A stretch of 23,360 nt of DNA. It comes from a virus. The notes below the pieces were generated by a model that was not told where the DNA came from, did no database searches, and was given only the letters and a program-made list of their open reading frames with translations. This document shows positions 1,474 through 16,915 of this stretch, piece by piece (the first letter of the stretch is position 1; the number at the start of each line of letters is the position of its first letter). The translations under genes were made by a program, and so were the position numbers. The DNA is taken from positions 1 to 23,360 of IMG/VR virus record IMGVR_UViG_3300008262_000375. One strand, written 5' to 3'.

Positions 1474-1962
1474 ATGGCTGATTTACTGATGAAAATGCCG
1501 GTACCTTACGAACCCAAAAGGCAGAACCGATTTATATTAAGTTTTGATTCAACTTTGGGTATAAATGAATGGTTCGTAGAAAGTGCTTCAAGACCACATA
1601 TAACAATTAATCCAACAGAAATTCCATTTTTAAATACTTCTACATATGTAGCAGGTAGATTTACATGGGGTACTATTAACGTTACATTCCGTGACCCAAT
1701 TGGACCTTCAGCGTCACAAGCTTTGATGGAATGGGTTAGATTATGTGCTGAGTCAGTAACAGGTCGTATGGGATATGCCGCAGGTTATAAGAAAAACGTT
1801 GAAGTTAGTATGTTAGACCCAACAGGTGTTGTTGTTGAGAAATGGATATTAGAAGGTACTTTCTTAAGTGATGTTAACTTCAATAACTTGGATTATAAGT
1901 CCGATTCATTGGCAACAATCACGGCTACTTTGAGAATGGACCGTTGTATTTTAGTATACTAA
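1474..1962 (+). CDS. gp19: Tail tube protein (T4 gp19-like)
   Basis: This 162-residue protein is the building block of the inner tail tube, stacked as hexameric rings inside the sheath. T4 gp19 has 163 residues, so the length fits. Family features include the N-terminal 'PYEPKRQNRFILSFD', the tryptophan in 'INEWFVESASRP', 'TWGTINVTFRDPIGPSASQ', 'MEWVRL', and a C-terminal beta strand pair ending 'LATITATLRMDRC'. These belong to the gp19 / phage tail tube beta-barrel fold. It follows the sheath gene after the HAD insertion and is followed by a strong terminator, consistent with a separately ended, highly expressed message. Codons are enriched for well-expressed forms such as CGT, TTC and GAC. 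The ATG lacks a Shine-Dalgarno and has an A-rich leader. Confidence 0.93.
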   Translation: MADLLMKMPVPYEPKRQNRFILSFDSTLGINEWFVESASRPHITINPTEIPFLNTSTYVAGRFTWGTINVTFRDPIGPSASQALMEWVRLCAESVTGRMGYAAGYKKNVEVSMLDPTGVVVEKWILEGTFLSDVNFNNLDYKSDSLATITATLRMDRCILVY

Positions 1963-2174: not shown

Positions 2175-2936
2175 ATGATGGATAAGGATTTATACCAAGC
2201 TGCAACAGAAAACTTTAATTTACCACATGACATGGTTCAATTACCTTCAGGTGGAATTTTTTACAAAAGTAAGAAAAAATCAGTCAAAGTTGGTTATTTG
2301 ACGGCTGTTGATGAAAATTTACTAAATAGTTCTAATATTGAAAGAGAGGGATTAATGATGACTCTTTTAAGAAATAAGGTTTATGAACATGATTTAAGAC
2401 CTGAAGAGTTGTTAGATGTTGATATCCAAGCAGTTTTGTTATTTTTAAGAAATACTTCTTTTGGTCCTGAATATAATATGTCTGTTTTAGACCCAAGAAC
2501 AAACAAGTATTTTGATACTACAATTGTATTAGACGAACTTAATATTACCCGACCAACAAGTCTACCTGATGAGACCGGTCTTTTTGAAACTAAATTACCA
2601 AAAACTGGTGTGGTAGTTAAGTTAAAACCTTTATCATATGGTGAAGAAACTGAAATTGAGAAGTCTTTAGAAAAATACCCTGTAGGTTTAGTTCCACCTA
2701 CTATAACAATGAAATTACAAAAACAAATTGTTGAAGTTAATGGTGATACCTCACTTTCTACTATATCTAAATTTGTAAATGAACTTCCAATCTTGGATTC
2801 AAAACATATTAAGAATTTTTTAAGAGAAAACGTACCTTCATTGGACCTAAAAAGACAAGTTAAAACCCCATCAGGAGAAATAGTTACAGTTCAAGTAGCG
2901 TTTGGGGTTGAGTTTTTTCGTCCGTTCTTCCAATAA
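2175..2936 (+). CDS. Baseplate hub assembly protein, T4 gp26/gp51 type
   Basis: This 253-residue protein has the 'LPSGGIFY' motif (residues 23-30) near its N-terminus, characteristic of the T4 baseplate protein family that includes gp26 and gp51. It ends in a 'VAFGVEFFRPFF' strand, also seen there. A middle acidic/helical region (about 50-100) and a 'LRENVPSLDL' segment near the end fit the same family. In T4 these proteins act in hub assembly. Here the gene lies 22 bases upstream of the tape measure gene, where many phages encode the chaperone that coats the tape measure, so it could also serve that role. Two adjacent ATGs begin the ORF; the first is chosen. No programmed frameshift into another frame is visible. 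Confidence 0.65.
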   Translation: MMDKDLYQAATENFNLPHDMVQLPSGGIFYKSKKKSVKVGYLTAVDENLLNSSNIEREGLMMTLLRNKVYEHDLRPEELLDVDIQAVLLFLRNTSFGPEYNMSVLDPRTNKYFDTTIVLDELNITRPTSLPDETGLFETKLPKTGVVVKLKPLSYGEETEIEKSLEKYPVGLVPPTITMKLQKQIVEVNGDTSLSTISKFVNELPILDSKHIKNFLRENVPSLDLKRQVKTPSGEIVTVQVAFGVEFFRPFFQ

Positions 2937-2958: not shown

Positions 2959-4815
2959 ATGTTTGTACTTGGTGATTTAGATGATGCTGCTAATAGTGCA
3001 GGTAAATTAAATGACGAATTTGCTGCGATAAGTTCGGAAATGTCAACTATTACAGGTCTTTTTGGGACATTTAATAATTTAGTTAATACGAATTTATTAG
3101 ACCTTACAAAAATGAGAGATGTTCTCTTATATGTTGACAGGTCGGCTATGAATATTTCAAAATCATTTGGACAAGGTCGAGAAAATGTAACACAATTAAA
3201 AATTGCAATGGCGGATGCATATGTTGAAGTTGCTAAAATGGGTGGTACGTATAAAGATATTGCGGAAATACAAGGAAAAGTTGCTGCTGATTTAGGTCGA
3301 AATGTTATTCTACAATCTGACACTATTGAAAAATTATTTGCAACACAAGAAGTTACAGGACAAAATGCTGAGGTAGTTACAAAATCATTTAAAGATGCTG
3401 GAATGAGTGCTAATTTGGCTGTGGAGGGGATGCAAAAAGTTGTTGATATTTCAAGAAGTCAAGGAGTTAATGCTCAGGCAGTGTCTAAACTTGTTGTTGA
3501 CAACATGAAAAATTTAAACATGTATACATTTCAAGGAGGTGTTGACGGTTTGTCTAAAATGGCGGCACAAGCAACATCAATGAGATTTAGTATGAGTGAA
3601 ACATTTAGATTTGCTGAGAAAGTATTTAATCCTGAAGGGGCGATTGAGACTGCGGCTGCTTTACAAAGATTAGGTGTGACTCAAAGTCAATTATTAGACC
3701 CATTAAGATTAATGGATTTAGCTCAAAATGACCCAACAGAATTACAAAATCAATTAGTTCAAATGACTGAACAATTTGTTCAACTTAATTCAAAAGGACA
3801 ATTTGAAATTATGCCTGATGCTAAAAGACAGTTAAGGGCTATTTCTACCGAGTTAGGAATTGGTTATGACGAACTTGTAAAAATGTCAATTGGTTCTGCG
3901 GAAGTTGCTGATAAAATGAATAAAATTAGTTTCCCAACAGGTGCATTTAGCGAAGAAGATAAAAAATTTATAGCTAACATGGCAGAGATGGGACCTGGTG
4001 GTGTTTATACTTTAAAGGTTGATGGTAAAGATGTTGGTATCGAACAGGCGATGGATATCTTTACTAAAGATAGGACTAAGTTTGATAAGTTTATGGAAGC
4101 GTCAAGACCTAAAACAATGGAAGATTTGGCGATTGAACAATTAGATACTTTAAAATCAATGTCGGCTGCTTTAAATTCTATGATGAATAGAACGTCTATT
4201 GCTGCTAGTGGTTCAAAAGTTGGAGAAACTATATTATCTGGGTATCGAGAAGCATACAATATTCCTGCTAGGACTATGTCAGGAGAAGCTTTTGATACTG
4301 AAAATATGAGAATTAAATTTGATGAACTTGGTACTGGTATATCTGATATTTTTACAAAAATTACTGAGGGTAATTTTGATTTAGCGGATGCAGCATCAAA
4401 AGTAGAGGGGGCGTTTAAAGGTCTTGGTGATTATCTTAAAGATGAACTTTCATCAGTAATTGGTAATTTAAAGGGTGAAGGGGAAAAAATAGTGAATGGT
4501 GGTAATAAAACATTAGAAATGGAAGACTTTATATTAAAAACACACCCAAAGGATTCTATAGTTTTTACACCTGATATGATGGTTGGTGGTACTAATTTGT
4601 TTGGTGGACAACAAAATAGTCTGAGTGAAACTAAAAATACCCATGATATTAATTTAAATGTTAATTTAACATCAACGGGTACTGATTTAAATCAAATAAC
4701 TAAAAAAGAAATATTAGAACCATTAGTTGCTCATATACAAAAAGTAATTACAGGTGATGGATTGTTAAATAAAAATGGTAAAACACCAAATCCAATGGTT
4801 AATTATCAGGTTTAA
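2959..4815 (+). CDS. Tail tape measure protein (T4 gp29 position and size)
   Basis: This 618-residue, mostly alpha-helical protein is a good candidate for the tape measure that sets tail length and sits inside the tube; T4 gp29 has 590 residues. The N-terminal third is rich in Ala, Ser, Thr, Lys and Met with heptad-like spacing. A Gly-containing break occurs at about 350 ('MGPGGVYTLKVDG'). The C-terminus has a short beta segment, 'HDINLNVNLTSTG', then 'ILEPLVAHIQKVI', a pattern common at tape measure ends. It lies between the gp26-like gene and the large tube-cap-position gene, matching T4 order 28-29-48-54. An earlier ATG at 2949 is in another frame and soon stops. At about 0.15 nm per residue the predicted tail is roughly 90 nm. 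Confidence 0.72.
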   Translation: MFVLGDLDDAANSAGKLNDEFAAISSEMSTITGLFGTFNNLVNTNLLDLTKMRDVLLYVDRSAMNISKSFGQGRENVTQLKIAMADAYVEVAKMGGTYKDIAEIQGKVAADLGRNVILQSDTIEKLFATQEVTGQNAEVVTKSFKDAGMSANLAVEGMQKVVDISRSQGVNAQAVSKLVVDNMKNLNMYTFQGGVDGLSKMAAQATSMRFSMSETFRFAEKVFNPEGAIETAAALQRLGVTQSQLLDPLRLMDLAQNDPTELQNQLVQMTEQFVQLNSKGQFEIMPDAKRQLRAISTELGIGYDELVKMSIGSAEVADKMNKISFPTGAFSEEDKKFIANMAEMGPGGVYTLKVDGKDVGIEQAMDIFTKDRTKFDKFMEASRPKTMEDLAIEQLDTLKSMSAALNSMMNRTSIAASGSKVGETILSGYREAYNIPARTMSGEAFDTENMRIKFDELGTGISDIFTKITEGNFDLADAASKVEGAFKGLGDYLKDELSSVIGNLKGEGEKIVNGGNKTLEMEDFILKTHPKDSIVFTPDMMVGGTNLFGGQQNSLSETKNTHDINLNVNLTSTGTDLNQITKKEILEPLVAHIQKVITGDGLLNKNGKTPNPMVNYQV

Positions 4816-4858: not shown

Positions 4859-7800
4859 ATGTCAGATAGTTCATTATCATTTGCTTCAACCTCGACGTTT
4901 AGAAACAACCTTTTAGGTAGAAATCTTGCTCCGTATACTGTACAGGGTGTTTTTACACCTCCAATAAGTAATGTTGCTTATGAAACAGTTTTAACTGTTA
5001 CAAATGTAATAGATTCTCCTGATAACTTGATTGCTGATGATGTATTTGCTAATCAACTTTATCCATTAAATGAATACGGTCCTGATGGGGGGTATAATAC
5101 AACAATTACGTTTAATGGTCCTCCATTACCTGTAGCCTCTAATAGTGGTGAATATAGTCCTAATGACACTGTATTAGATATTATAAATGAGGCAACTATA
5201 AATGCTCAATTTATTGAAAATAGATTTGGTCCTACTGGTGGATTTGAAGATTTATATTTTGTTGATAATATACAGTTAAATGGTATTACAAACAATCCTT
5301 ATTGGCAACCACCAAGTTTTTTACCTTCATTTTATACACCATATGAGATTTTAACAAATGATAACCCAAATGGTTCTAATGGTTTATTATCTCAAGATTC
5401 TTTTATCGCTAGAATTGGTGCAGAAAGATTACAATTTGCGTTTCAACAAAGAGTCGCAGCTGAAATCTTCCAAAACACTGTTGGACAAGTTAATTTATCG
5501 TCATTACAAGACCCTTTTGAAGCAAGTTTAATCGTTACGGGTCAACAACCGCTAATTTATAAGAATTGGAGAATTACAGTTCCTGAGAATCCAATATTAA
5601 GAATTGTTGATTTAGCAACGAGATTATCATCCGCTTATTGGCCTGTTTCACCGATACCTGGTGATTACTTTGAGATGGGAGGTGTTCCTCAAAATCAACA
5701 AACTTCATTGGCTTTAAATGTTGCTAATCAGTTAACAGGTGGATTTTTAGGACCGGTATTGAATTTTACAAGAAGTTCTTCTGAAACATTTTTGGCAAAT
5801 ACTGGAAACGGACAAAGGTCGGCATTATTTGCCAATATAGATTATAATAGATATCAACCACCATATGATAAAAATTATGGAGGTATTTTGGGTGTTATTT
5901 CGGGTGTTGCTAATTTATTAACCAATTTAATAAATCCTGATAACGGAACACTTATTGGTGGTTATTATGTTGGTAGTAGAAATGCTGAACCATCAACAAT
6001 TACTTCACCACCAAATCAAGTACCTGTCAATGTCTTTGGTGAACAAGTTCAAGCTCCTGTTTATGGACCATCTGAATTAGGTATTTTATATGAAGGTAAC
6101 CAAGAAGTTTTAAATTTTGGTTTAGCTTCTAAAACATATAGTGATGGTGGTGGTATTGGTGGGGGATTTGTATGGGTTTCACCAAAATATAAAGATAATG
6201 CTGGTTACAAACCAACAGTAGGTGGAGGTGTAGGTACTATTGATGAAAATTACAATGAAGTTAGTAGTGATTATACTCGTAATGAGTCAACAAATATTAC
6301 ATTTAAGGGTAATTCTATTTTAGATAATACTCAAAGATTAATTGATTCTGCGGATAATGTTCAAGGTATTTCAAGATTAAAACATGTTGGTAACGCTATA
6401 AATCAAGTTAGTAAAGTTTTCAATGACGGATACAAAGAAATGACTAAAGGTTCTAAAGTTGTATCTTATGTTGATAACACAACAGGAGAGCAGGCGGGTA
6501 CTGAGTATTGTAGAGTATTTGCTAAAGATACTCCATATTTGATGTATAATGATTTACAAAAGACAGACGGTATTACTACTTCAGGAAGAAGAAGTACTTT
6601 CTCTGTGTTAGATAATACTTTTAATTTAAACATTGCCCCAACAAGAAATCCAGGTTCAACAAACATTATTCAAGGAGGTGATGGTAGCGGTGGTTATGTT
6701 AAGAAATACATGTTATCAATTGAAAATTTAGCATGGAAAACATCAAGTAGACCTGGTTTTACTTATGATGATTTACCTGTTTGTGAAAGAGGACCAAATG
6801 GTGGTAGAATAATGTGGTTTCCACCATACAATTTAAAGTTTAGTGATTCTTCAAACGCTCAATGGAATCCAACATCCTTTTTAGGTAGACCTGAACCAAT
6901 TTATACATATAAAGAAACTTCAAGAACGGGAACTCTTTCATTTATGATAATTGTTGATAATCCTTCAGTTACAAATCTTATTGTTGAACAACAACTTAGT
7001 GGAAAAAATAAAGAAAGAATTGATTCAGTATTGAGTTCTTTCTTTGCGGGATGTACTAAATTTGACATTTATGAATTAGCTAAAAAATTCAATACATTAA
7101 AGCCAAGTGATTTGATGACTTATCAAGAAATCATCAATAATCCAAGATTAACTAATGAAGAACTTGAAGGTGTTATCAAAGAAATTCCTGTTGTTAACAC
7201 AACATCAGGTGGACAAGGTACTGACACGGCTCCTAATCCTGATATAGTTGTAGGTAGTGGGGAAGGTAATACACCTGACCTTATAGGTCCTTTTGAAAAT
7301 GAATTTTTGGATTTTGCATTTTATTTTGAAAATGACATTCCAGGGCCAAGTGATAAAGAAACAACAACCGCAAATTACAAAACAATTTACGACACATATA
7401 CATCATCTTCGAATATTACCAAGTATGTTGATAATGCTCATAATCTTTTTGATTCAACAGATGTAAATTACAATGTTCAAGAATTTTTTGATAATGTTAT
7501 TATAAATAACTTTAGAAAAATTACTGAAGGTGATAATTCATTTGTTCAACAAGCGTATAAATTATTAAATGATGGTATTGTAAAATCAATATCGATTGAG
7601 ATGGAAGGTTCGGCATCTGCTATTGCAACACCTCAATATAATAAAAAATTATCATTACGAAGAATCGACTCAATTAAAAATTATCTATCACAACCTATTA
7701 ATGGGGTTGATTTAGGTAAATTTATTAATGAGGGTACTTTTATTATAAAAAACGCTGAAGGTTTTGGCGAAGAAATCGTTATACCTAAATATAGTACTGA

Positions 7801-9922
7801 AATTGGGGCTAATGGTGTAACTGCAACTACTGTCAATTCAGGTACAGGTATTGATGTTGATTGTAAACAAAATATTGAAAATAAAAACGGTAATGTTACC
7901 TCTCAGTCTCAAGTTTATGCGTCAAATGCGATGGCTTGTAGACGAGTTAGAATTAAAAATATATCAGTTCAAAAAAATGAAATTATTCCAAATCCTGAAG
8001 AACCGGTAAAAACTGTTATTGATATAACTCCACCAACAACAACTACTACAACTGAAACTATAAAAGTTCCATTAAGACCCCCAATACCATCCCCAACTAA
8101 AACTATACAACAAAAATTGAAAGATAGTATTGGTAAACGAGTACTTAGGAATTTATTAACAGAATGTAATTATTTTGAAGTTATTAAAGAAAATGTACCA
8201 TTTTTATATGATTCATTTAAAGAGAGAATTAAGTATTTTAATCCTGCGTTCCACTCAATGACACCTGAAGGTCTTAACTCAAGATTAACATTTCTTAATC
8301 AATGTTTAAGACCTGGTGAAACAATACCTGTGATTGGTACTGATGGGAAACCAAGAATTAATGATGCTGTTAATACTTCTTTTGGGGCACCTCCTGTGTT
8401 AGTATTAAGAATCGGTGATTTTTATAATTGTAGAATAATACCTGATAGTATATCATTTACATACGATTCTTCACTTTTGGATTTAAATCCTGAAGGTATT
8501 GGAGTACAACCTATGTTAGTAAACGTGAATATGGGTTTTAAAATGATTGGTGGTCATGGTATTGCAAATCCTGTTGAACAATTACAAAACGCTCTTTCGT
8601 TTAACTACTATGCTAATACTGAAATTTATGATGAAAGGTCAGTTTGGACTGAAGATACTACGGCACTTGACAAACAAATTGCAGATGCATTAGGTTTAGA
8701 ACCTGAGGTGACTACACCTGTTAATAATGTTACACCACAAGCAACTAATGATGGTGGGTCAACGATTGGTGAGATACTTACAAATAAACCTATTGAAGGT
8801 GGAAGTGAAGGTGAGATTAGTTATTTAAAAATAATGGATTCTCTTCTAACGGATTCAAAAACATATTTCACATTAATTGTTAATAAACTTGAAGAAATTA
8901 ATACTAAATACAATTATGGTATAGTTCAATTAGTTAACCAAGATAGAAACTTTAAAATTGGACCATTAGATACTACACAACCTCACGATTCTAACATATA
9001 TGGGTCACCATTTAAAATTGAAGAAAAATTAAATCAAGTTTTTAATCAAGTTTATTCAGATATTAACAGTGGGGCGAATCCAATTATTAACCAATTAAAT
9101 CAATTAAATTTCTTAAACAGTACAAAAACTATTATAGTTAATAACATGACAAACTATATTGTATCAAATGTACAACCAACTATTGCAAGTGATATTACAG
9201 TAGTTTTACAAGACATTTTAAATTTTGAACAAACTTTTGTTCAAAACATAAGAAAAGTAAATTTAGTTGTTAAAGAACATGACGGTAAAGTAGATTCAAC
9301 TAATTTACCTTCAATTTATACATTAACACCGACAACTGAATTAAGTCCGACTACTGTTTCAGGTGCTGGAAATACATTACAAGAATTGGACGGTGATTTT
9401 ATATCTTTTGGAGCTCAAATGGATAATTTCAACACATATTTACAAGAAAAACAAATTATAACTTCTTCTTACAATGGTGTTGGTCAAATTCAGACCTTTA
9501 AATTAGATTCAAGTGATATTACAAATAACTGTTTCTTTATGGTTCTTGGGAGAATTCTTACTCAAGATTCTAAAAAAGATGAGTTTATTAGTAAATGTTT
9601 AACAGGTGTTTCAGATATTAACGAACCATATAGTTTGGAAAACAAATTTAGAAAAATAGTTAATGATTTGGCTAATGACTACTCTAAAGAAATTAACAGA
9701 GATGAAGAGTTTTTCCAAGAATTTAAAAAAGAAAATGAATATAAAAATTATGTTGATGGTGTTGAAGAATTGATGTATAAAGCAGGAAAAGTAAGGAAAT
9801 TTACTTTCTCAACTGTTACTCCGTCAACAGAAGAAGTAAAAACACAATTTAAAGAATTATATGATGGTCAAAATCACGGTGGTGATGATACATATTTAGG
9901 TAAGGTTAAATTTACAAGTTAA
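4859..9922 (+). CDS. Giant baseplate / tube-cap-like structural protein with an OmpA-like domain (1687 aa)
   Basis: This gene lies directly after the tape measure, where T4 has tube-cap genes 48 and 54 (about 320-360 residues each), but is some five times longer. Residues about 618-708 ('MLSIENLAW', 'GGRIMWFPPYNLKF', 'RTGTLSFMI') and about 1130-1261 ('PAFHSMTPEGLNSRL', 'PPVLVLRIGDFYNCRI', 'VNVNMGFKMIGG') look like beta-rich tube-related segments. Between them, residues 816-1034 resemble an OmpA C-terminal domain: 'FAFYFENDIPG', then 'NKKLSLRRIDSI', then 'NAMACRRVRI'. The OmpA Asp used for peptidoglycan binding is Ser920 here, while the key Arg (R935) is kept. A Thr/Pro linker (about 1058-1083) follows. 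The last 400 residues are helical and Asn/Gln-rich. No signal peptide is seen. I infer a baseplate scaffold; the individual domain calls are from motif recognition only. Confidence 0.65.
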   Translation: MSDSSLSFASTSTFRNNLLGRNLAPYTVQGVFTPPISNVAYETVLTVTNVIDSPDNLIADDVFANQLYPLNEYGPDGGYNTTITFNGPPLPVASNSGEYSPNDTVLDIINEATINAQFIENRFGPTGGFEDLYFVDNIQLNGITNNPYWQPPSFLPSFYTPYEILTNDNPNGSNGLLSQDSFIARIGAERLQFAFQQRVAAEIFQNTVGQVNLSSLQDPFEASLIVTGQQPLIYKNWRITVPENPILRIVDLATRLSSAYWPVSPIPGDYFEMGGVPQNQQTSLALNVANQLTGGFLGPVLNFTRSSSETFLANTGNGQRSALFANIDYNRYQPPYDKNYGGILGVISGVANLLTNLINPDNGTLIGGYYVGSRNAEPSTITSPPNQVPVNVFGEQVQAPVYGPSELGILYEGNQEVLNFGLASKTYSDGGGIGGGFVWVSPKYKDNAGYKPTVGGGVGTIDENYNEVSSDYTRNESTNITFKGNSILDNTQRLIDSADNVQGISRLKHVGNAINQVSKVFNDGYKEMTKGSKVVSYVDNTTGEQAGTEYCRVFAKDTPYLMYNDLQKTDGITTSGRRSTFSVLDNTFNLNIAPTRNPGSTNIIQGGDGSGGYVKKYMLSIENLAWKTSSRPGFTYDDLPVCERGPNGGRIMWFPPYNLKFSDSSNAQWNPTSFLGRPEPIYTYKETSRTGTLSFMIIVDNPSVTNLIVEQQLSGKNKERIDSVLSSFFAGCTKFDIYELAKKFNTLKPSDLMTYQEIINNPRLTNEELEGVIKEIPVVNTTSGGQGTDTAPNPDIVVGSGEGNTPDLIGPFENEFLDFAFYFENDIPGPSDKETTTANYKTIYDTYTSSSNITKYVDNAHNLFDSTDVNYNVQEFFDNVIINNFRKITEGDNSFVQQAYKLLNDGIVKSISIEMEGSASAIATPQYNKKLSLRRIDSIKNYLSQPINGVDLGKFINEGTFIIKNAEGFGEEIVIPKYSTEIGANGVTATTVNSGTGIDVDCKQNIENKNGNVTSQSQVYASNAMACRRVRIKNISVQKNEIIPNPEEPVKTVIDITPPTTTTTTETIKVPLRPPIPSPTKTIQQKLKDSIGKRVLRNLLTECNYFEVIKENVPFLYDSFKERIKYFNPAFHSMTPEGLNSRLTFLNQCLRPGETIPVIGTDGKPRINDAVNTSFGAPPVLVLRIGDFYNCRIIPDSISFTYDSSLLDLNPEGIGVQPMLVNVNMGFKMIGGHGIANPVEQLQNALSFNYYANTEIYDERSVWTEDTTALDKQIADALGLEPEVTTPVNNVTPQATNDGGSTIGEILTNKPIEGGSEGEISYLKIMDSLLTDSKTYFTLIVNKLEEINTKYNYGIVQLVNQDRNFKIGPLDTTQPHDSNIYGSPFKIEEKLNQVFNQVYSDINSGANPIINQLNQLNFLNSTKTIIVNNMTNYIVSNVQPTIASDITVVLQDILNFEQTFVQNIRKVNLVVKEHDGKVDSTNLPSIYTLTPTTELSPTTVSGAGNTLQELDGDFISFGAQMDNFNTYLQEKQIITSSYNGVGQIQTFKLDSSDITNNCFFMVLGRILTQDSKKDEFISKCLTGVSDINEPYSLENKFRKIVNDLANDYSKEINRDEEFFQEFKKENEYKNYVDGVEELMYKAGKVRKFTFSTVTPSTEEVKTQFKELYDGQNHGGDDTYLGKVKFTS

Positions 9923-9924
9923 TT

Positions 9925-10251
9925 ATGATGAATAAACAATTTTATAATCGATATAACAATTTTATCATAAATGGTAATCAAACTGTGGTCCCGTATATTA
10001 CGTTACCTTCAAAAACAACTGACAAACGATTCATTTATAAAATAAACCAAACAAGGTTAGATAAAATTTCACAACAATATTATAACTCACCTTTTTTTGG
10101 ATGGTTAATTATGGTTGCAAATCCTGTTTATGGAGGACAAGAATGGAATATACCTGATGGTTCTATATTGACTATTCCATATCCTTTGGTAACTTCTTTA
10201 CAAGATTATAAAACGGCTTTAGATAACCATTTCTTCTATTATGGTAGATAA
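9925..10251 (+). CDS. Baseplate wedge protein, gp53/LysM-like
   Basis: This 108-residue protein resembles the LysM-like core found in T4 gp53 and related tail proteins. Residues 44-88 run 'RLDKISQQYYNSPFFGWLI', then 'VANP', then 'IPDGSILTIPYPL', the typical LysM sequence of helix, hydrophobic W, Asn-Pro and 'I.pG..l.IP'. In contractile tails such proteins tie baseplate wedges to the hub and tube; peptidoglycan binding is not implied. It starts two bases after the upstream stop and overlaps the next start by 11 bases, suggesting translational coupling of three baseplate genes. Two in-frame ATGs stand at the start (9925 and 9928), with little consequence. Confidence 0.65.
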   Translation: MMNKQFYNRYNNFIINGNQTVVPYITLPSKTTDKRFIYKINQTRLDKISQQYYNSPFFGWLIMVANPVYGGQEWNIPDGSILTIPYPLVTSLQDYKTALDNHFFYYGR

Positions 10252-13200
10252 CTCAGAAAATATTTTAGTAGATTACGATTACAATAATATTATTGTCGTT
10301 GACCCAAATAAAGTGGTTGATACTAATGGTAATGTTAAAGAAAGATATGTTAAACAAGAAAATTTAGTAATTTACGCTAATTTAGAGTGTAATGTTTTAC
10401 CAAGAACTAAATTAGCTGTTGGTTCATCTAATACCACTGATATTAAAACAGTTAGTATTGCGAGTATTAATTTTTTAAAACCTGGTAATAAAGAGTTTAT
10501 GGATATTGGTTATACTGATGAACTAACAGGTTTAAAAAAGGTAAATAAAAATGGTACCGAACAAAATAATCCTAATAACGTAAAACAAACATCTAAAAAT
10601 GATAATTTTTATTTTGACCAGGCATCCAATTTAAATGGAAATGAAAGGGTTTCTGATAATGGTTTATTAGGTATTACGTCTATTAATATTAGACAAAACA
10701 CATCATTTATGTCAACAATTAGTGTTGAGTTAGAAGATGTTAGAGGGAAGGCTTTGTTTGAAGGTGGAAATAGTTCACCATATGCTGCATTTTTTAATTT
10801 ACCATATCCGTTGTTTAATTTAACAATTAAAGGTTGGTATGGTAAGGCATTAAAATTACCATTAATGTTACAAAACTTCACTTCGAGGTATGATGGTAAT
10901 AGTGGTAATTTTAAAATTACTTTAACATTTTACACTTATAAATTTACTGTATTGACTGAAATCTCAATGGGGGCCATGCAAGCAACCCCACATATGTATA
11001 AGTCAAATGTAACAGTACAAAAAATTAGCGGGGGTCCTAATGCTACTACACCTGTACAAGATGTTGTTTATGAACAAGGTTATCAAAAAATTAGAGAATT
11101 ATATAGTGAATATAAAACTAAAGGATTAATACCTGATGATTTCCCTGAAATTACACTTGTACAACTTAGAAATAGAGTTGAAAACTTCATTAAAAATATT
11201 TTAGATTCTTTCATAAAACAAAATTTGAATCCTTTAAAAAATATTCAAGATTATGAAAATAAAATGATTGACTATAAGAATAATATTTATTTTGGAAAAT
11301 CAGTTATTCAACCTTCATGGTTTGAAAAATACATGGATAAAAGTAATTATTATGTATTAAAGAACAGTGGAGTTAAAATTTATACGTTTAAATTATTTTA
11401 TGATACCTTAGAAAAACAAACAAACGCTAAAAATAAATTAGAACAAATAATTAGTGATGGTAATAAGTCATTAAATTCTAATACTACACTTGGTGAAAAT
11501 GGAACGTATACCATTAATAATGTTACAAAATCTTCTGCAATTACTTGTGATATCAATATAAACGATTTTCAAAAAATCATTCAAGATGGGGATATTGATT
11601 TAACCGAGACATATATTCAAAGAAATGGTGGTGCGGTGCCAACTACAGAACAACTTAGTGAGTTAGAAAAAGAAATTAAATTAACTTTAAATTCAGTAGG
11701 TTCAATTAACCTTTCAAACGGTGAAACAAACCCAAAAATACCTTTTTATTATTTTGAAGGTACTGGTAGTTTTATAGATAAAACTAACCAAATTTTAAAG
11801 TCAGTAAAAATAAAAAAAGAGGAAATACAAACATCATTAACTGACGCTTTAGCTGAAAAACTACAAAGTAAAAATACAGGAATTGGATTTGTACCAACTA
11901 TAAGAAATGTTTTAGCTGTTATTTTTGCAAATGGTGAGGCTTTCTTAAGACTAATGGAAGATGTCCATTCTAAAGCTTGGGATTTAAGAGATGAAAAAGT
12001 AAGAAAAAGTGCTATTTTAGGAACTAAACCTTCAACAGATAATTTAAATCCTGGTGAAAATGTAAATACTCCTATATACCCATGGCCTCAATATATTGTT
12101 GAAACAACGGGAGAGAATGGTAGAGGTAAATATGAGATTAGATATCCTGGTGAATCTGAAGTTATTGACCAAACAAAAGGTTTTGAATTTCAATATTGGC
12201 CTGAAGTTGAATTTTTGGAGGAATTTGTAAGAGCTTTTACTGAAACTACACAATCTAAAAATCAAACACCTCAAGATTTTTCTAATGAAGAAACTGATAT
12301 TAAAAGAATTAGTTTTAACGCTATTGAATTTCCTGTATCAAATGTTGTTTTTTCTAACAAAGAAGAAATAAAATTTTTCTATGAAATATTTGAGAGATTA
12401 TTTTTTGTTACAAATTACTCAAGATTAAGTAGAATAAATTTTGACACTGAATTTTCAGACAAAATTACATCATTACTTGCTGACGGGGAAAAAAATAATT
12501 TATTAGTTAGTTTATCTGACGATAATCCATTTTTAATACAAAAATTACAAAATTATGGTATTAACTCGGCTAATTTTGTTTCAATCCTAAGACATTTTTC
12601 TAATGATGGAGAAGGACAATCTTGGCAGAATTATATTAGAGGTATTTTTAACACTTCTTATATTAAAAATTTATCTCAGAATTCAAATTTTGAATTTTTA
12701 AATAAAAATATATTAAACGATTCATTATCTAGTCCATTAATCACTTTAACTAACGAAACTGATTTAATTGAGTTTGTTGGGAATTCTACTAAATCAAATG
12801 TGTTTGATTTTTTAGATATATACCCATTTACAAATTTAAATTGGGTGACTAATAACTTGGCAGATGGTTCATCAATATTGACGGTAGAAAGTAGTTTTGA
12901 TACTCGAAAAATACTTACCTTTAATACTGATAAAAAAATAATATCTAATTTTTCGGGTAATACTAGTTCAGACCAAAAAAGACCCATTACAAATTTTTTG
13001 TGGGGTACTAATCCAACACAACCACTAATAAGTAATACAACTAATTTGTCTTCTTTTTACGACTCAAGAGTACCTGAAAATCAGTTAATTACTGAAGGAA
13101 GTGTTTATTATAGTAATTACAGTGGATTTGTTACAAGTACTCAAACTACATCAATGTTCAATACACCATTTTTTGTTAATGCTATACAAGAGGGTGTTAG

Positions 13201-16200
13201 TAATTTTAGAAATAATGACCCATATCCATATAAAGCTGCCGCTTTTTTGTTTTTGAATAGTTTACCTTTAGCGACATTAAGGGAAAAATATAAAACATAT
13301 GAAAATGGAACAACAACTGATTTAGATTATATATTTGCAACAATTAAAAAATTTGGAGCAATACATAAAGTACCATATGCTTGGATATTAAAAATAGGTT
13401 CAATTTGGAGTAGATATAAAACTTATGTTGAAACAGGTACGGACTTTTTGAATACTTCTTGGAGTAACTTCAATTATATATCAAACTATGACCCAATAAC
13501 TAATTCACCTACAAAACAATATAGCTTGATTGTTGATGGTAGTGCGATTGATATTATTTTAGAAAAAAATACTGTAATTGGTACAGACACTAGTTCATTA
13601 ATTCATTCGGGATTTTATCCTAAATTGATTAATGACTTCAATGTCTTTTATCAAGGATTTCAAATATATTCAACGTATACTAATTCAGATATCCAAGATG
13701 GATTTTCTTCAGGTGTAACTCTCAATTATGTTGATGGTGCAATTATAGATTATGGTGATGGTTTTGATACGAACAGTCCTAACAGAACTTTAAGAATAAT
13801 TCCTTGGTCGGTTACCGTTAAGACATTAGATGATAAATTTAATTATGTTATACCATCTCAAGGTTCACCAATAAATCAAGTTAAATTTGAATGTTTTAGT
13901 AATGGACAAATAAAACAAGAAGTTTTAGGTAATCAATCAATGTATAACGGTTCAATTAGAACCTATTGGTCATCACCTCAGTATGGTTATTTTGATATTT
14001 CTAAAATAACAAAACCAAGTCCTGAACAATACTTAAAAAATATATTATTAACATCACAAATTCAGGAAAATTTCTCATTAAATGGTATTAATAGTTATTA
14101 TGATGACATTAGTGAAATTTTTTCAGTTTTTGAAAAAGATGTTCTTGATAGATTTGAAAATGAATTTTTAAATTTCTCAAGGTCAGTGTATGATTATAAA
14201 TCTAATATTGTTTCAGAAAATGATACAGATTCGGAATATTCTATGAAGAATTTTCAATTCTTTATGAGAGAAATGATGAAAGTACCATATAGTAGTGGTA
14301 CAACCGGTACTCAAACAGTCGGAAACACTTCAGATGGTCAATTTATTCAAATAAATAAATTTTTGATAGATTTTTTAAAATATGATGTGGTATTCAAATA
14401 CGGTAATCCGTCTAATTTTGATAAAAGATTGTTTTACACTTTTTCTAATTTACCAATAACTGAACCATATACTTGGGATTCTTATAAGGTATCAACACCA
14501 AATGCTTTACCTGTTAATGGAGGTTCTGTTTCTTTATCTCAATCTCAAACAAATTATCCTGATTCTTGGAAAGCTCTAAAGACGTATGTTGGTTTTTCTA
14601 ATATACCTGATTTAATTTATAGTAATAATGGTTCATATATAACTGATTTCTTTATTGATTTAGATGTTGCTTTCAGTGTGTCAAATATTAAGAATTTTGC
14701 GCCTATTATTAAAATTTATGCAACACAAAAACTTAATCAAAATCAAACAAATGAGATTGTTCCTGAACAGGCCCCACCAAATATTTCTTCACCTGCTTCT
14801 CCTCCTCTTTCTGGTATTGAAGTGGCCGTTGTAAATTTACAAAATGGGGATAAAATTATTGTACAAAAAGAAAGTGCTTTTCCATATAATCCTAATTTTT
14901 ATCCTATAGCTTATAATAGTACTGGTCAAGTTTTATATACAGGGGAAAAAGAAGCTCCTTTCCCACCAACTGTATGGAATAACTATTGTCAACAATTAAT
15001 TAACAATACTATTATACTATTATACGGTTCATTATCTACCAATCCTACTGACCCACAATATATTGTAAACCAAGATATACATGCAACTAGTAATTACCCA
15101 ACAATACCGAATCCTTTAAGTAATGAAGGTAAGAATTCATTTGCTGAAAACATGACTAACTATCTGTTACAATCAACTAATTTTCAAGATAAAATTACAA
15201 ATAATTTATTTACAAGATTAAGATTAGATTTACCTAAAGTTACGATTAGTAATTATAAAACACTAAATTCAAAATTGGAAGGTGATTTAACTAAAAGAGA
15301 TTTGTGGGAATCTTTTAAGGCAACAAATGATAAATGGATTTCAGGTAATGATTTTAAAAATAAAACGTTATTTGAAGATGTTTTATTTTTAGATAGAGCA
15401 TCAAGAGATATTGGTAATAAAGTTATTATTGACATATACAAGTTGAAAGAAAGATTGAATAACATCAATCCTAAAACTAATATGTTAACATATGTTCAGT
15501 CAATTATAGAAGAAAACCACTTTGTGGTTATGAATGTTCCATCATATATGAATTTTTATAATGTTCAAGATGCCACCAAAAATCCTGTACCAAAAATGGA
15601 AGGTGTTGGAGATTTTGCTAATAGTCTTTTTGGTACGTTTATGAACGTTGATTATAGAAATTCGTCTTCAAAATTAGTATGTTTTTATGGTGGTAAACCA
15701 AGTGAACACTTAGCGGTAAATAACGTTGATTATAAATTTAATGATGATGGTTTTGACTTGAAAAAAGACAATCCTTTAATTGAAAATCAAGTTGATAAGA
15801 AAGACTGGGATAAATCAAATAGAGTTGTTGGTTTTAATATTGATATTGGAACTCAAAATCAACAAATTTTTCATGGGTTTTCACTGTCACAAGACGCTGG
15901 ATTATCTACCGCTGAGAGTATTCAAATTCTTAATGATATGACCGCTCAGGCGGGTAATAGACAAGCAGCCACACAAAACATAAGTTTATATAATCTATAT
16001 AAAACTAGAAGTTACAAGTGTACAATTAATATGATGGGTAACGCTATGATACAACCAACAATGTACTTTAATTTAAGGTATGTTCCTATGTTTAGTGGGC
16101 CTTATATGATTTTATCAGTTGACCATACAATATCTCAGGGTAGTTTTGAAACAATTTTGACAGGTATAAGACAAACAATTTATTCATTACCACAATTAGA

Positions 16201-16915
16201 CGATTATTTACAAACATTGAAAGTTAATTTATTACAATCTATAGTTGAAACAACACTGACTCAAGAAAGACAAAATGCCACAACGGCCACGACCCAATCT
16301 TCAGGTAATATACTTAATGAAACCGCTCAAATTGGTTCAACAATTACTGAACAATATGCAACTCAAGTATCATCAGCAATAAACGAAGCTTGTAAGCCTG
16401 ACGAAAAGTACTCATCATATACTCCAATTGAAGAACCTAAAAACACTAAACTAAATTATTTGGACGTATATGAAAATATTATTTTATTAACATCAAATCA
16501 AACTTTACAATATTTAATCTTCTCAACGTTTTATATTGCCTCAGGTAAAAATTACGCTTTTGATACTTATGAAAATAATTTTGGAGGTATTACTATTGAC
16601 CAATATTGGGGACCGACTGGAGATGCTAATTTTAGTTCTGACAGAAAATTTTATTGTTCAGTAAATAACGCTCCTTATGCTAAATTCTCAACTATTGAAA
16701 AATCTATTCAATTTTTAATTTCTAGATGGTCAGGAAGAATTGGAACATTGACACCAACTGAGGAAAGTTTAGCAAAGTTTTGGGTACTTAACGCTAATAC
16801 TAATGAAACAAGACCGGAAAATAATTGGACTAGTTTATCTCAAGAGGAAAAAAATATTGTAATTAATGATTTTAGAGAGGCAATTCAAATATTCCAAGCA
16901 ATGGAATTACAATAA
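10241..16915 (+). CDS. Giant baseplate hub-like protein with possible C-terminal cell-wall domain (2224 aa)
   Basis: At 2224 residues this is the largest gene here. Residues about 147-250 ('NTSFMSTISVELEDVRG', 'PYPLFNLTIKGWYGK', 'FKITLTFYTYKF') form a beta-rich N-terminal hub-like segment. Residues about 1862-1979 ('VVGFNIDIGTQNQ', 'YKCTINMMGNAMIQP', 'YVPMFSGPYMILSVDHTI', 'FETILTGIR') resemble the C-terminal domain of gp27/late-control-D type hub proteins. A Thr/Gln/Ala linker (about 2010-2050) leads to residues 2074-2224 with 'FYIASGKNYAF' and 'NNFGGI', like glucosaminidase or lysozyme folds, but an obvious catalytic Glu is not seen. This could replace T4 gp27 plus gp5. The roughly 1500 residues between are Asn/Ser/Tyr-rich, without a domain I recognise. 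It overlaps the gp53-like gene by 11 bases. Confidence 0.65.
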   Translation: MVDNSENILVDYDYNNIIVVDPNKVVDTNGNVKERYVKQENLVIYANLECNVLPRTKLAVGSSNTTDIKTVSIASINFLKPGNKEFMDIGYTDELTGLKKVNKNGTEQNNPNNVKQTSKNDNFYFDQASNLNGNERVSDNGLLGITSINIRQNTSFMSTISVELEDVRGKALFEGGNSSPYAAFFNLPYPLFNLTIKGWYGKALKLPLMLQNFTSRYDGNSGNFKITLTFYTYKFTVLTEISMGAMQATPHMYKSNVTVQKISGGPNATTPVQDVVYEQGYQKIRELYSEYKTKGLIPDDFPEITLVQLRNRVENFIKNILDSFIKQNLNPLKNIQDYENKMIDYKNNIYFGKSVIQPSWFEKYMDKSNYYVLKNSGVKIYTFKLFYDTLEKQTNAKNKLEQIISDGNKSLNSNTTLGENGTYTINNVTKSSAITCDININDFQKIIQDGDIDLTETYIQRNGGAVPTTEQLSELEKEIKLTLNSVGSINLSNGETNPKIPFYYFEGTGSFIDKTNQILKSVKIKKEEIQTSLTDALAEKLQSKNTGIGFVPTIRNVLAVIFANGEAFLRLMEDVHSKAWDLRDEKVRKSAILGTKPSTDNLNPGENVNTPIYPWPQYIVETTGENGRGKYEIRYPGESEVIDQTKGFEFQYWPEVEFLEEFVRAFTETTQSKNQTPQDFSNEETDIKRISFNAIEFPVSNVVFSNKEEIKFFYEIFERLFFVTNYSRLSRINFDTEFSDKITSLLADGEKNNLLVSLSDDNPFLIQKLQNYGINSANFVSILRHFSNDGEGQSWQNYIRGIFNTSYIKNLSQNSNFEFLNKNILNDSLSSPLITLTNETDLIEFVGNSTKSNVFDFLDIYPFTNLNWVTNNLADGSSILTVESSFDTRKILTFNTDKKIISNFSGNTSSDQKRPITNFLWGTNPTQPLISNTTNLSSFYDSRVPENQLITEGSVYYSNYSGFVTSTQTTSMFNTPFFVNAIQEGVSNFRNNDPYPYKAAAFLFLNSLPLATLREKYKTYENGTTTDLDYIFATIKKFGAIHKVPYAWILKIGSIWSRYKTYVETGTDFLNTSWSNFNYISNYDPITNSPTKQYSLIVDGSAIDIILEKNTVIGTDTSSLIHSGFYPKLINDFNVFYQGFQIYSTYTNSDIQDGFSSGVTLNYVDGAIIDYGDGFDTNSPNRTLRIIPWSVTVKTLDDKFNYVIPSQGSPINQVKFECFSNGQIKQEVLGNQSMYNGSIRTYWSSPQYGYFDISKITKPSPEQYLKNILLTSQIQENFSLNGINSYYDDISEIFSVFEKDVLDRFENEFLNFSRSVYDYKSNIVSENDTDSEYSMKNFQFFMREMMKVPYSSGTTGTQTVGNTSDGQFIQINKFLIDFLKYDVVFKYGNPSNFDKRLFYTFSNLPITEPYTWDSYKVSTPNALPVNGGSVSLSQSQTNYPDSWKALKTYVGFSNIPDLIYSNNGSYITDFFIDLDVAFSVSNIKNFAPIIKIYATQKLNQNQTNEIVPEQAPPNISSPASPPLSGIEVAVVNLQNGDKIIVQKESAFPYNPNFYPIAYNSTGQVLYTGEKEAPFPPTVWNNYCQQLINNTIILLYGSLSTNPTDPQYIVNQDIHATSNYPTIPNPLSNEGKNSFAENMTNYLLQSTNFQDKITNNLFTRLRLDLPKVTISNYKTLNSKLEGDLTKRDLWESFKATNDKWISGNDFKNKTLFEDVLFLDRASRDIGNKVIIDIYKLKERLNNINPKTNMLTYVQSIIEENHFVVMNVPSYMNFYNVQDATKNPVPKMEGVGDFANSLFGTFMNVDYRNSSSKLVCFYGGKPSEHLAVNNVDYKFNDDGFDLKKDNPLIENQVDKKDWDKSNRVVGFNIDIGTQNQQIFHGFSLSQDAGLSTAESIQILNDMTAQAGNRQAATQNISLYNLYKTRSYKCTINMMGNAMIQPTMYFNLRYVPMFSGPYMILSVDHTISQGSFETILTGIRQTIYSLPQLDDYLQTLKVNLLQSIVETTLTQERQNATTATTQSSGNILNETAQIGSTITEQYATQVSSAINEACKPDEKYSSYTPIEEPKNTKLNYLDVYENIILLTSNQTLQYLIFSTFYIASGKNYAFDTYENNFGGITIDQYWGPTGDANFSSDRKFYCSVNNAPYAKFSTIEKSIQFLISRWSGRIGTLTPTEESLAKFWVLNANTNETRPENNWTSLSQEEKNIVINDFREAIQIFQAMELQ

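Follow-up and report, generated by a model that had tools for sequence, protein, structure and literature searches.

An OmpA-like domain with an altered binding pocket within a long tail protein of uncultured phages

Results

Gene order around the 1687-residue protein

The window analysed here is an IMG/VR viral contig of 23,360 bases. A single open frame on its plus strand (4859..9922) encodes a tail protein of 1687 amino acids, whose length is conserved among the closer viral relatives (mostly ~1625–1755 amino acids) and whose gene slot is conserved as well. Upstream on the same strand lie genes for a tail tube protein (1474..1962; phrog_4542, E 1e-27), a baseplate hub-type protein (2175..2936; phrog_150, E 7.5e-12) and a probable tape measure of 618 amino acids (2959..4815). 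The last of these is assigned from its position, as it is a conserved neighbour and an annotated tape measure is found in the same slot of Flavobacterium phage vB_FspM_immuto (hereafter immuto). Downstream, also on the plus strand, follow a gp53/LysM-like baseplate wedge subunit of 108 amino acids (9925..10251; phrog_7145, E 9.4e-5, and E 4.9e-6 for its counterpart in the distant relative L148) and a large hub-type protein of 2224 amino acids (10241..16915), which was assigned from position and conserved order, and from relatives that bear C-terminal endolysin-like or M23 domains. The order tube, hub-type protein, tape measure, 1687-residue protein, gp53/LysM-like protein and large hub is kept across the relatives checked, in agreement with the baseplate-region setting that had been proposed in the initial annotation.

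The C-terminus of the large hub is endolysin-like in L148 (11324–16771; phrog_181, E 3e-10) and an M23 peptidase in L255 (10921–16113), and the immuto hub carries a VanY domain. In the window, the last 400 residues of the hub (10241–16915) gave no family match. Among 50,697 phage records, no cultured relative was found for the 2224-residue hub, nor for the 1687-residue protein in a tblastn search. Both the conserved order and the slot shared with an immuto protein that lacks the insert described below were counted for the assignment of the 1687-residue protein, which is likely to be the tube initiator, or baseplate centrepiece.

Directly before the tail tube gene, a 275-residue protein (535–1362) begins with the stretch FDWDDNILTMPT. 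Its family matches are very weak; by eye, the sequence is suggestive of a HAD-type phosphatase. Defence-system models gave no match.

Identity of the OmpA-like domain

An OmpA-C-like domain spans residues 816–1040 of the 1687-residue protein (7304..7978, plus strand; delimited elsewhere in our analysis as ~808–1040). It had been proposed from the sequence at 7304–7960, residues 816–1034, a correspondence with which the translation agrees exactly; the residues that were named (E916-G917-S918-A919-S920, N928, R934, R935 and A1026 of ACRRVRI) are correctly numbered, and the domain itself was borne out by profile searches and predicted structure. Profile searches of the PDB, and searches with PF00691, NCBIfam Pal and bacterial OmpA profiles, all reached the OmpA family.

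PF00691 matches residues 888–953 when the whole 1687-residue protein is searched (18.7 bits, E 0.0022), and the isolated domain with 22.2 bits (E 1.8e-4); searched against the 23,360-base window alone, it gives E 8.7e-7. A first scan identified 39 viral relatives of the domain. Of 27 domains that were aligned, PF00691 matched 25 and, at a loose threshold, the NCBIfam Pal model matched all 27. When a profile of the homologous domains was compared to all PDB chain sequences, the first 27 hits were all of the OmpA/Pal/MotB type (best E 1.1e-4) and included OmpA, Pal, YfiB and PorE.

An AlphaFold2 model of the domain (mean pLDDT 87, pTM 0.86) has the OmpA order beta1-alpha1-beta2-alpha2-beta3-alpha3-beta4, with extra helices between beta1 and alpha1 (model residues 35–58, protein residues 840–863) and a disordered loop ahead of the last helix and strand. 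In the structure comparison that had been set beforehand, this model and Foldseek matched the OmpA/Pal/MotB fold. The best 39 Foldseek matches in the PDB are all of this type, none of them with E ≤ 0.001 (best 0.041); the weak E-values are probably due to the enlargement of the phage domain seen in the model. When Foldseek was run against viral models, the one strong match (E 2e-5) was a protein from an uncultured phage, and phage proteins named OmpA came up only weakly.

The G917–N928 distance of 11 residues is the same as in the GHTD...N motif of the aligned bacterial domains, so the claim of canonical spacing holds. An insertion of ~75 residues had also been suggested before the last strand. 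Extra length is indeed present there, but its size is nearer to ~50 residues: S920 to R1028 covers 108 residues, and we take the equivalent span of E. coli Pal to be ~57.

Could the resemblance be chance, or the convergence of a helix-strand motif? The Pfam scores of the window copy (18.7–23.9 bits) are all below the curated cut-off of 27.2 bits, and the Foldseek E-values fall short of 0.001. Reciprocal profile tests with shuffled controls argue strongly against it. A bacterial OmpA profile, built from ten domains of one Paludibacteraceae and one Holophagaceae genome, recognized 150 of 193 unique phage inserts at E ≤ 1e-3, as opposed to 1 of 1930 shuffled inserts, and 180 of 193 as opposed to 3 of 1930 at E ≤ 0.05. 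In the reverse direction, a profile of 17 compact distant phage domains detected OmpA-type domains of bacteria in 59 of the 60 genomes in the class that was searched, with a best E of 2.3e-14. PF00691 likewise matches 16 of these 17 phage domains (best E 4.1e-10), in addition to the 25 of 27 above, and the AlphaFold model and Foldseek are consistent with the OmpA fold. We therefore reject chance resemblance, to which we assign hardly any probability, and regard the identity of the domain and the sequence of its pocket, as judged from profiles and model, as secure.

Two cysteines, C1002 (7865–7867) and C1027 (in MACRR, 7937–7945), are invariant in a 42-member alignment of the family, and a cysteine ahead of the last-strand arginine recurs in distant members. 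A disulfide or another pairing of the two is possible from the sequence; disulfides occur in other tails (PMC10811340).

The pocket is conserved but changed

In OmpA-like domains an aspartate of the pocket binds diaminopimelate. At this position the window protein has Ser920 (codon 7616..7618, plus strand), and the pocket arginine, 15 residues further on, is retained as Arg935 (7661..7663, plus strand); the same Asp-to-Arg spacing of 15 is found in the aligned bacterial domains. That the aspartate was replaced by Ser920 with R935 kept had been noted from this one sequence; it proved to be a hallmark of the family rather than a quirk of a single member. All 133 unique close relatives have serine and arginine at the two positions. 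In a wider set, whose members are related to each other so that the counts are not independent, the 175 residues aligned at the aspartate position comprise 169 Ser, 3 Thr, 2 Gly and 1 Asn, with no Asp or Glu, while the pocket Asn (N928) is present in 168 of 177 sequences, Leu (L931) in 171 of 177 and Arg (R935) in 177 of 177. Among bacterial control domains, aspartate is found in 28 of 28 rows, which come from two genomes and include repeats, and a class-wide search of bacterial OmpA-like domains found aspartate in 29 of 31 and serine in the other two.

In TagL, diaminopimelate is contacted by Asp486, Asn494, Leu497 and Arg501, and mutating Asn494, Leu497, Ser498, Arg501 or Ala502 abolishes wall binding (PMC8253398). 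By spacing, TagL Asp486, Asn494, Leu497, Ser498, Arg501 and Ala502 align with S920, N928, L931, S932, R935 and I936. Since one of the four contact residues is changed in every relative examined, the canonical grip on diaminopimelate is disfavoured.

Of the 20 residues conserved at 97% or more, eight lie in the Lbeta2-alpha2 stretch, around S920–R935. Others are F823, N825 and P828 in Lbeta1-alpha1 and G970, E971 and C1002 in Lbeta3-alpha3, with some at the last strand; the rest of the domain core is variable. This clustering of the most conserved residues at the pocket, within a varying core, indicates that the pocket is under selection and not decaying, and a decaying domain that has lost its pocket is accordingly disfavoured. 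Alignment of the family thus shows a pocket that is conserved but changed, in which Asp is always exchanged, almost always for Ser, and Arg, Asn and Leu are kept.

Probable insertion into a putative tube-like domain

The OmpA-like domain is flanked by two hypervariable linkers on the plus strand: residues 781–809 (7199..7285; conservation minimum 0.33) before it and the Pro/Thr-rich residues 1041–1080 (7979..8098; conservation 0.44) after it, both with pLDDT <50 in a larger model. The linkers (~781–809 and ~1041–1080) have the lowest conservation of the region, and the OmpA-like domain varies faster than the flanks.

Outside the linkers lie what appear to be the two halves of one tube-like domain, residues ~640–712 (6776..6994, plus strand) and ~1125–1270 (8231..8668, plus strand). 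The first half aligns with the 717-residue immuto protein (hhalign E 1.9e-6, probability 90%); the homology covers window residues ~647–712, and the immuto domain runs on uninterrupted. The second half alone is not significantly similar to the immuto domain (hhalign E 0.13), but once the insert is omitted the two halves are collinear and align to it in a single match of 139 columns (E 4.5e-6). As the immuto domain is uninterrupted and both halves align when the middle is left out, the OmpA-like domain is most simply explained as an insertion. What the data support is a domain held between two variable linkers rich in Pro and Thr and placed within a putative tube-like domain.

A model of residues 560–1295 is confident in the OmpA part only, the flanks being mostly at pLDDT <50. 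With this low-confidence model, Foldseek ranked one OmpA hit first; after it came tube initiators and tubes from contractile or flexible tails, at E 0.07–1 (Streptomyces CIS, A-1(L), AFP, AlgoCIS, pyocin R2 and Milano). Helices are predicted beside the tube-like halves (model residues 143–216 and 524–590), also with low confidence. Sequence searches found no homologous solved structure for the flanks, nor any match to the tube-like domain in PHROG, Pfam or the PDB, and its profile showed no similarity to that of the tail tube protein of the phages themselves (E 0.5).

In some distant relatives (L147 from a Paludibacteraceae metagenome-assembled genome (MAG), L276 and L295) a different, larger insert of 393–945 amino acids occupies the same place in the protein and has a GATK/GATS-type motif of altered spacing. 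Judging by these sequences, more than one OmpA-like version may have been inserted at this point.

Distribution and hosts

Confirmed relatives numbered at least 575 in a scan with the flanking region (A3), at least 597 with the divergent member L040 and at least 598 with the more distant homologue L148, and the contigs of viral relatives reach 380 kb. Among the loci fetched first, 196 open reading frames carry the first flank, the OmpA-like domain and the second flank together. One contig (L020, 3546–8436, and L099) encodes the long protein in two overlapping frames (704 and 954 amino acids), through either a frameshift or an assembly error; elsewhere the protein is intact.

Scanning the contigs of bacterial and archaeal genomes revealed three relatives: one in a MAG of the Holophagaceae, one in a MAG of the Paludibacteraceae and one in a single-cell assembly of Prochlorococcus. 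The last is L148 (contig QCKH01000012.1, 51 kb), which is also in the viral collection as L229; it is only distantly related, and its insert is compact (GYAS...R, NSRRVDLKI). These three sequences in bacterial assemblies do not settle the hosts. The sole match of the RecA-type recombinase of the window is to immuto (37% identity), and a Bacteroidota host is thereby suggested, not proven.

Discussion

Possible functions of the domain

The initial annotation had considered a grip on peptidoglycan, an outer-membrane partner or structural reuse. Our preferred reading, to which we give a probability of about one half, is that the OmpA-like domain serves as a tethered docking module whose pocket has been re-tuned, rather than as a canonical diaminopimelate anchor. 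The protein with the interrupted tube-like domain would continue the tail tube into the baseplate, and six copies of the OmpA-like domain may ring the base of the tube. The ligand of their re-tuned pockets would no longer be free diaminopimelate but, most probably, a peptide or carboxylate belonging to another protein of the tail or baseplate, and the tethered domains could thereby hold hub, tube and wedges together until contraction. This role is favoured by analogy: the centrepiece of Milano and pyocin has a helical domain that keeps the wedges joined and departs from the baseplate along with the moving tube (PMC10811340), and gp53-type subunits contribute their LysM fold to the structure of the wedge (PMC10811340, PMC10966104). 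However, a site that docks proteins only has no obvious need for the Asn, Leu and Arg kept from the wall-binding pocket, and the wall hydrolase domains in the hubs of relatives make a wall-related role at the tip plausible. Support for a tube-like fold of the flanks, whose model is poor, comes from synteny, a distant homologue and weak Foldseek hits (all with E > 0.05).

The kept pocket residues and the hydrolase domains of the hubs give weight to a cell-wall or periplasmic anchor, which we consider the main rival, though less probable. On contraction the initiator ring would leave with the tube and enter the periplasm, where the six domains would bind either peptidoglycan by a changed mode (recognizing, for instance, a stem peptide that is cross-linked or modified, without need of the Asp) or a periplasmic or outer-membrane protein, steadying the tube tip or positioning the wall hydrolase of the hub. 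The fold otherwise serves wall binding, the Asn, Leu, Ser and Arg of the TagL wall-binding set are conserved, the pyocin centrepiece is extruded with the moving tube (PMC10811340), hubs of relatives have endolysin-like, M23 or (in immuto) VanY domains, and Ser-type OmpA-like domains exist in bacteria (at least 2 of 31 sampled). Against such an anchor, one of the four diaminopimelate contacts is changed in every relative examined and the bacterial controls nearly all retain Asp. A fuller version, in which uncultured and partly giant phages turned the OmpA wall-anchor fold into a periplasmic tail-tip anchor with a Ser/Arg pocket, carried on the tube-initiator ring and gripping a wall structure or protein that canonical OmpA does not read, would be a device not described before; we rate it a little lower still. 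Structural reuse alone, in which the baseplate would employ the domain as a rigid spacer or for packing and the former pocket would bind nothing, seems improbable to us. It has a precedent in LysM, also a wall-binding fold, which is structural in the gp53-type wedge (PMC10811340, PMC10966104), and the domain overall does vary faster than its flanks; yet the pocket residues are its most conserved part, and both linkers are variable and predicted to be disordered, unlike those of a rigid packing element. Docking and altered wall or periplasmic binding cannot be separated by the computed data. That Asp is always exchanged and Arg always kept offers a direct test between binding of a phage protein and binding of a wall feature.

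Taken singly, the fold, the tail machine and the Ser-type form of the OmpA domain are known or occur in bacteria. Taken together, as something nearly constant in a large phage family, they were not met with in cultured phages or in the open-licence papers searched, where a search for an OmpA-like domain in a phage baseplate gave type VI secretion system papers alone and narrower searches gave nothing relevant. The domain would be a second wall-binding fold, after LysM, in the core of contractile tail tips, and it recurs almost throughout a large phage group that has no cultured representative in the searched collection. If the pocket binds a phage protein, this would explain how these baseplates are held and released; if it binds another feature of the wall, it would give the tail a novel means of holding on within the periplasm.

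Comparison with known systems

The 1687-residue protein has the slot between tape measure and hub in common with the Milano baseplate centrepiece gp25, pyocin PA0626 (Ripcord), Afp7/Alg7 and the A-1(L) tube initiator, and likewise an adjacent gp53/LysM-like unit; a tube-like domain is suggested, and helical segments beside it are predicted with low confidence, so that the likeness is one of gene position and predicted architecture. Those initiators are 200–400 amino acids long, as against 1687 here. Also different in the window are the LysM-like unit, which is a separate gene, and the OmpA-like domain, which splits the putative tube-like domain. The immuto protein immuto26A_236 (QQO91915.1) is closer, sharing the slot and a detectably homologous tube-like domain, but it is a hypothetical protein of 717 amino acids that is uninterrupted and in which no OmpA-like domain was found.

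With the OmpA-C/Pal/MotB family (PF00691; Pal, A. baumannii OmpA, TagL, PorE) the phage domain shares the predicted order of elements, the FxFxND-type first strand, the G...N..LS..R spacing, the Asn/Leu/Arg pocket and the R[RK]V last strand. It differs from this family in that all close relatives have Ser for Asp, helices are added after beta1 and the loop that precedes the last strand is long and variable. Also, OmpA-C domains end envelope proteins, whereas the phage domain sits within a tail protein on two linkers. The Ser-type (GYASPEG) OmpA-like domains of Bacteroidota, such as L337, resemble it in having Ser at the Asp position and keeping the Arg. L337 differs in being a bacterial protein, a 589-residue open frame with a tandem-repeat-like C-terminus; going by the shared sequence features, a bacterial Ser-type domain of this kind is a possible source of the phage domain.
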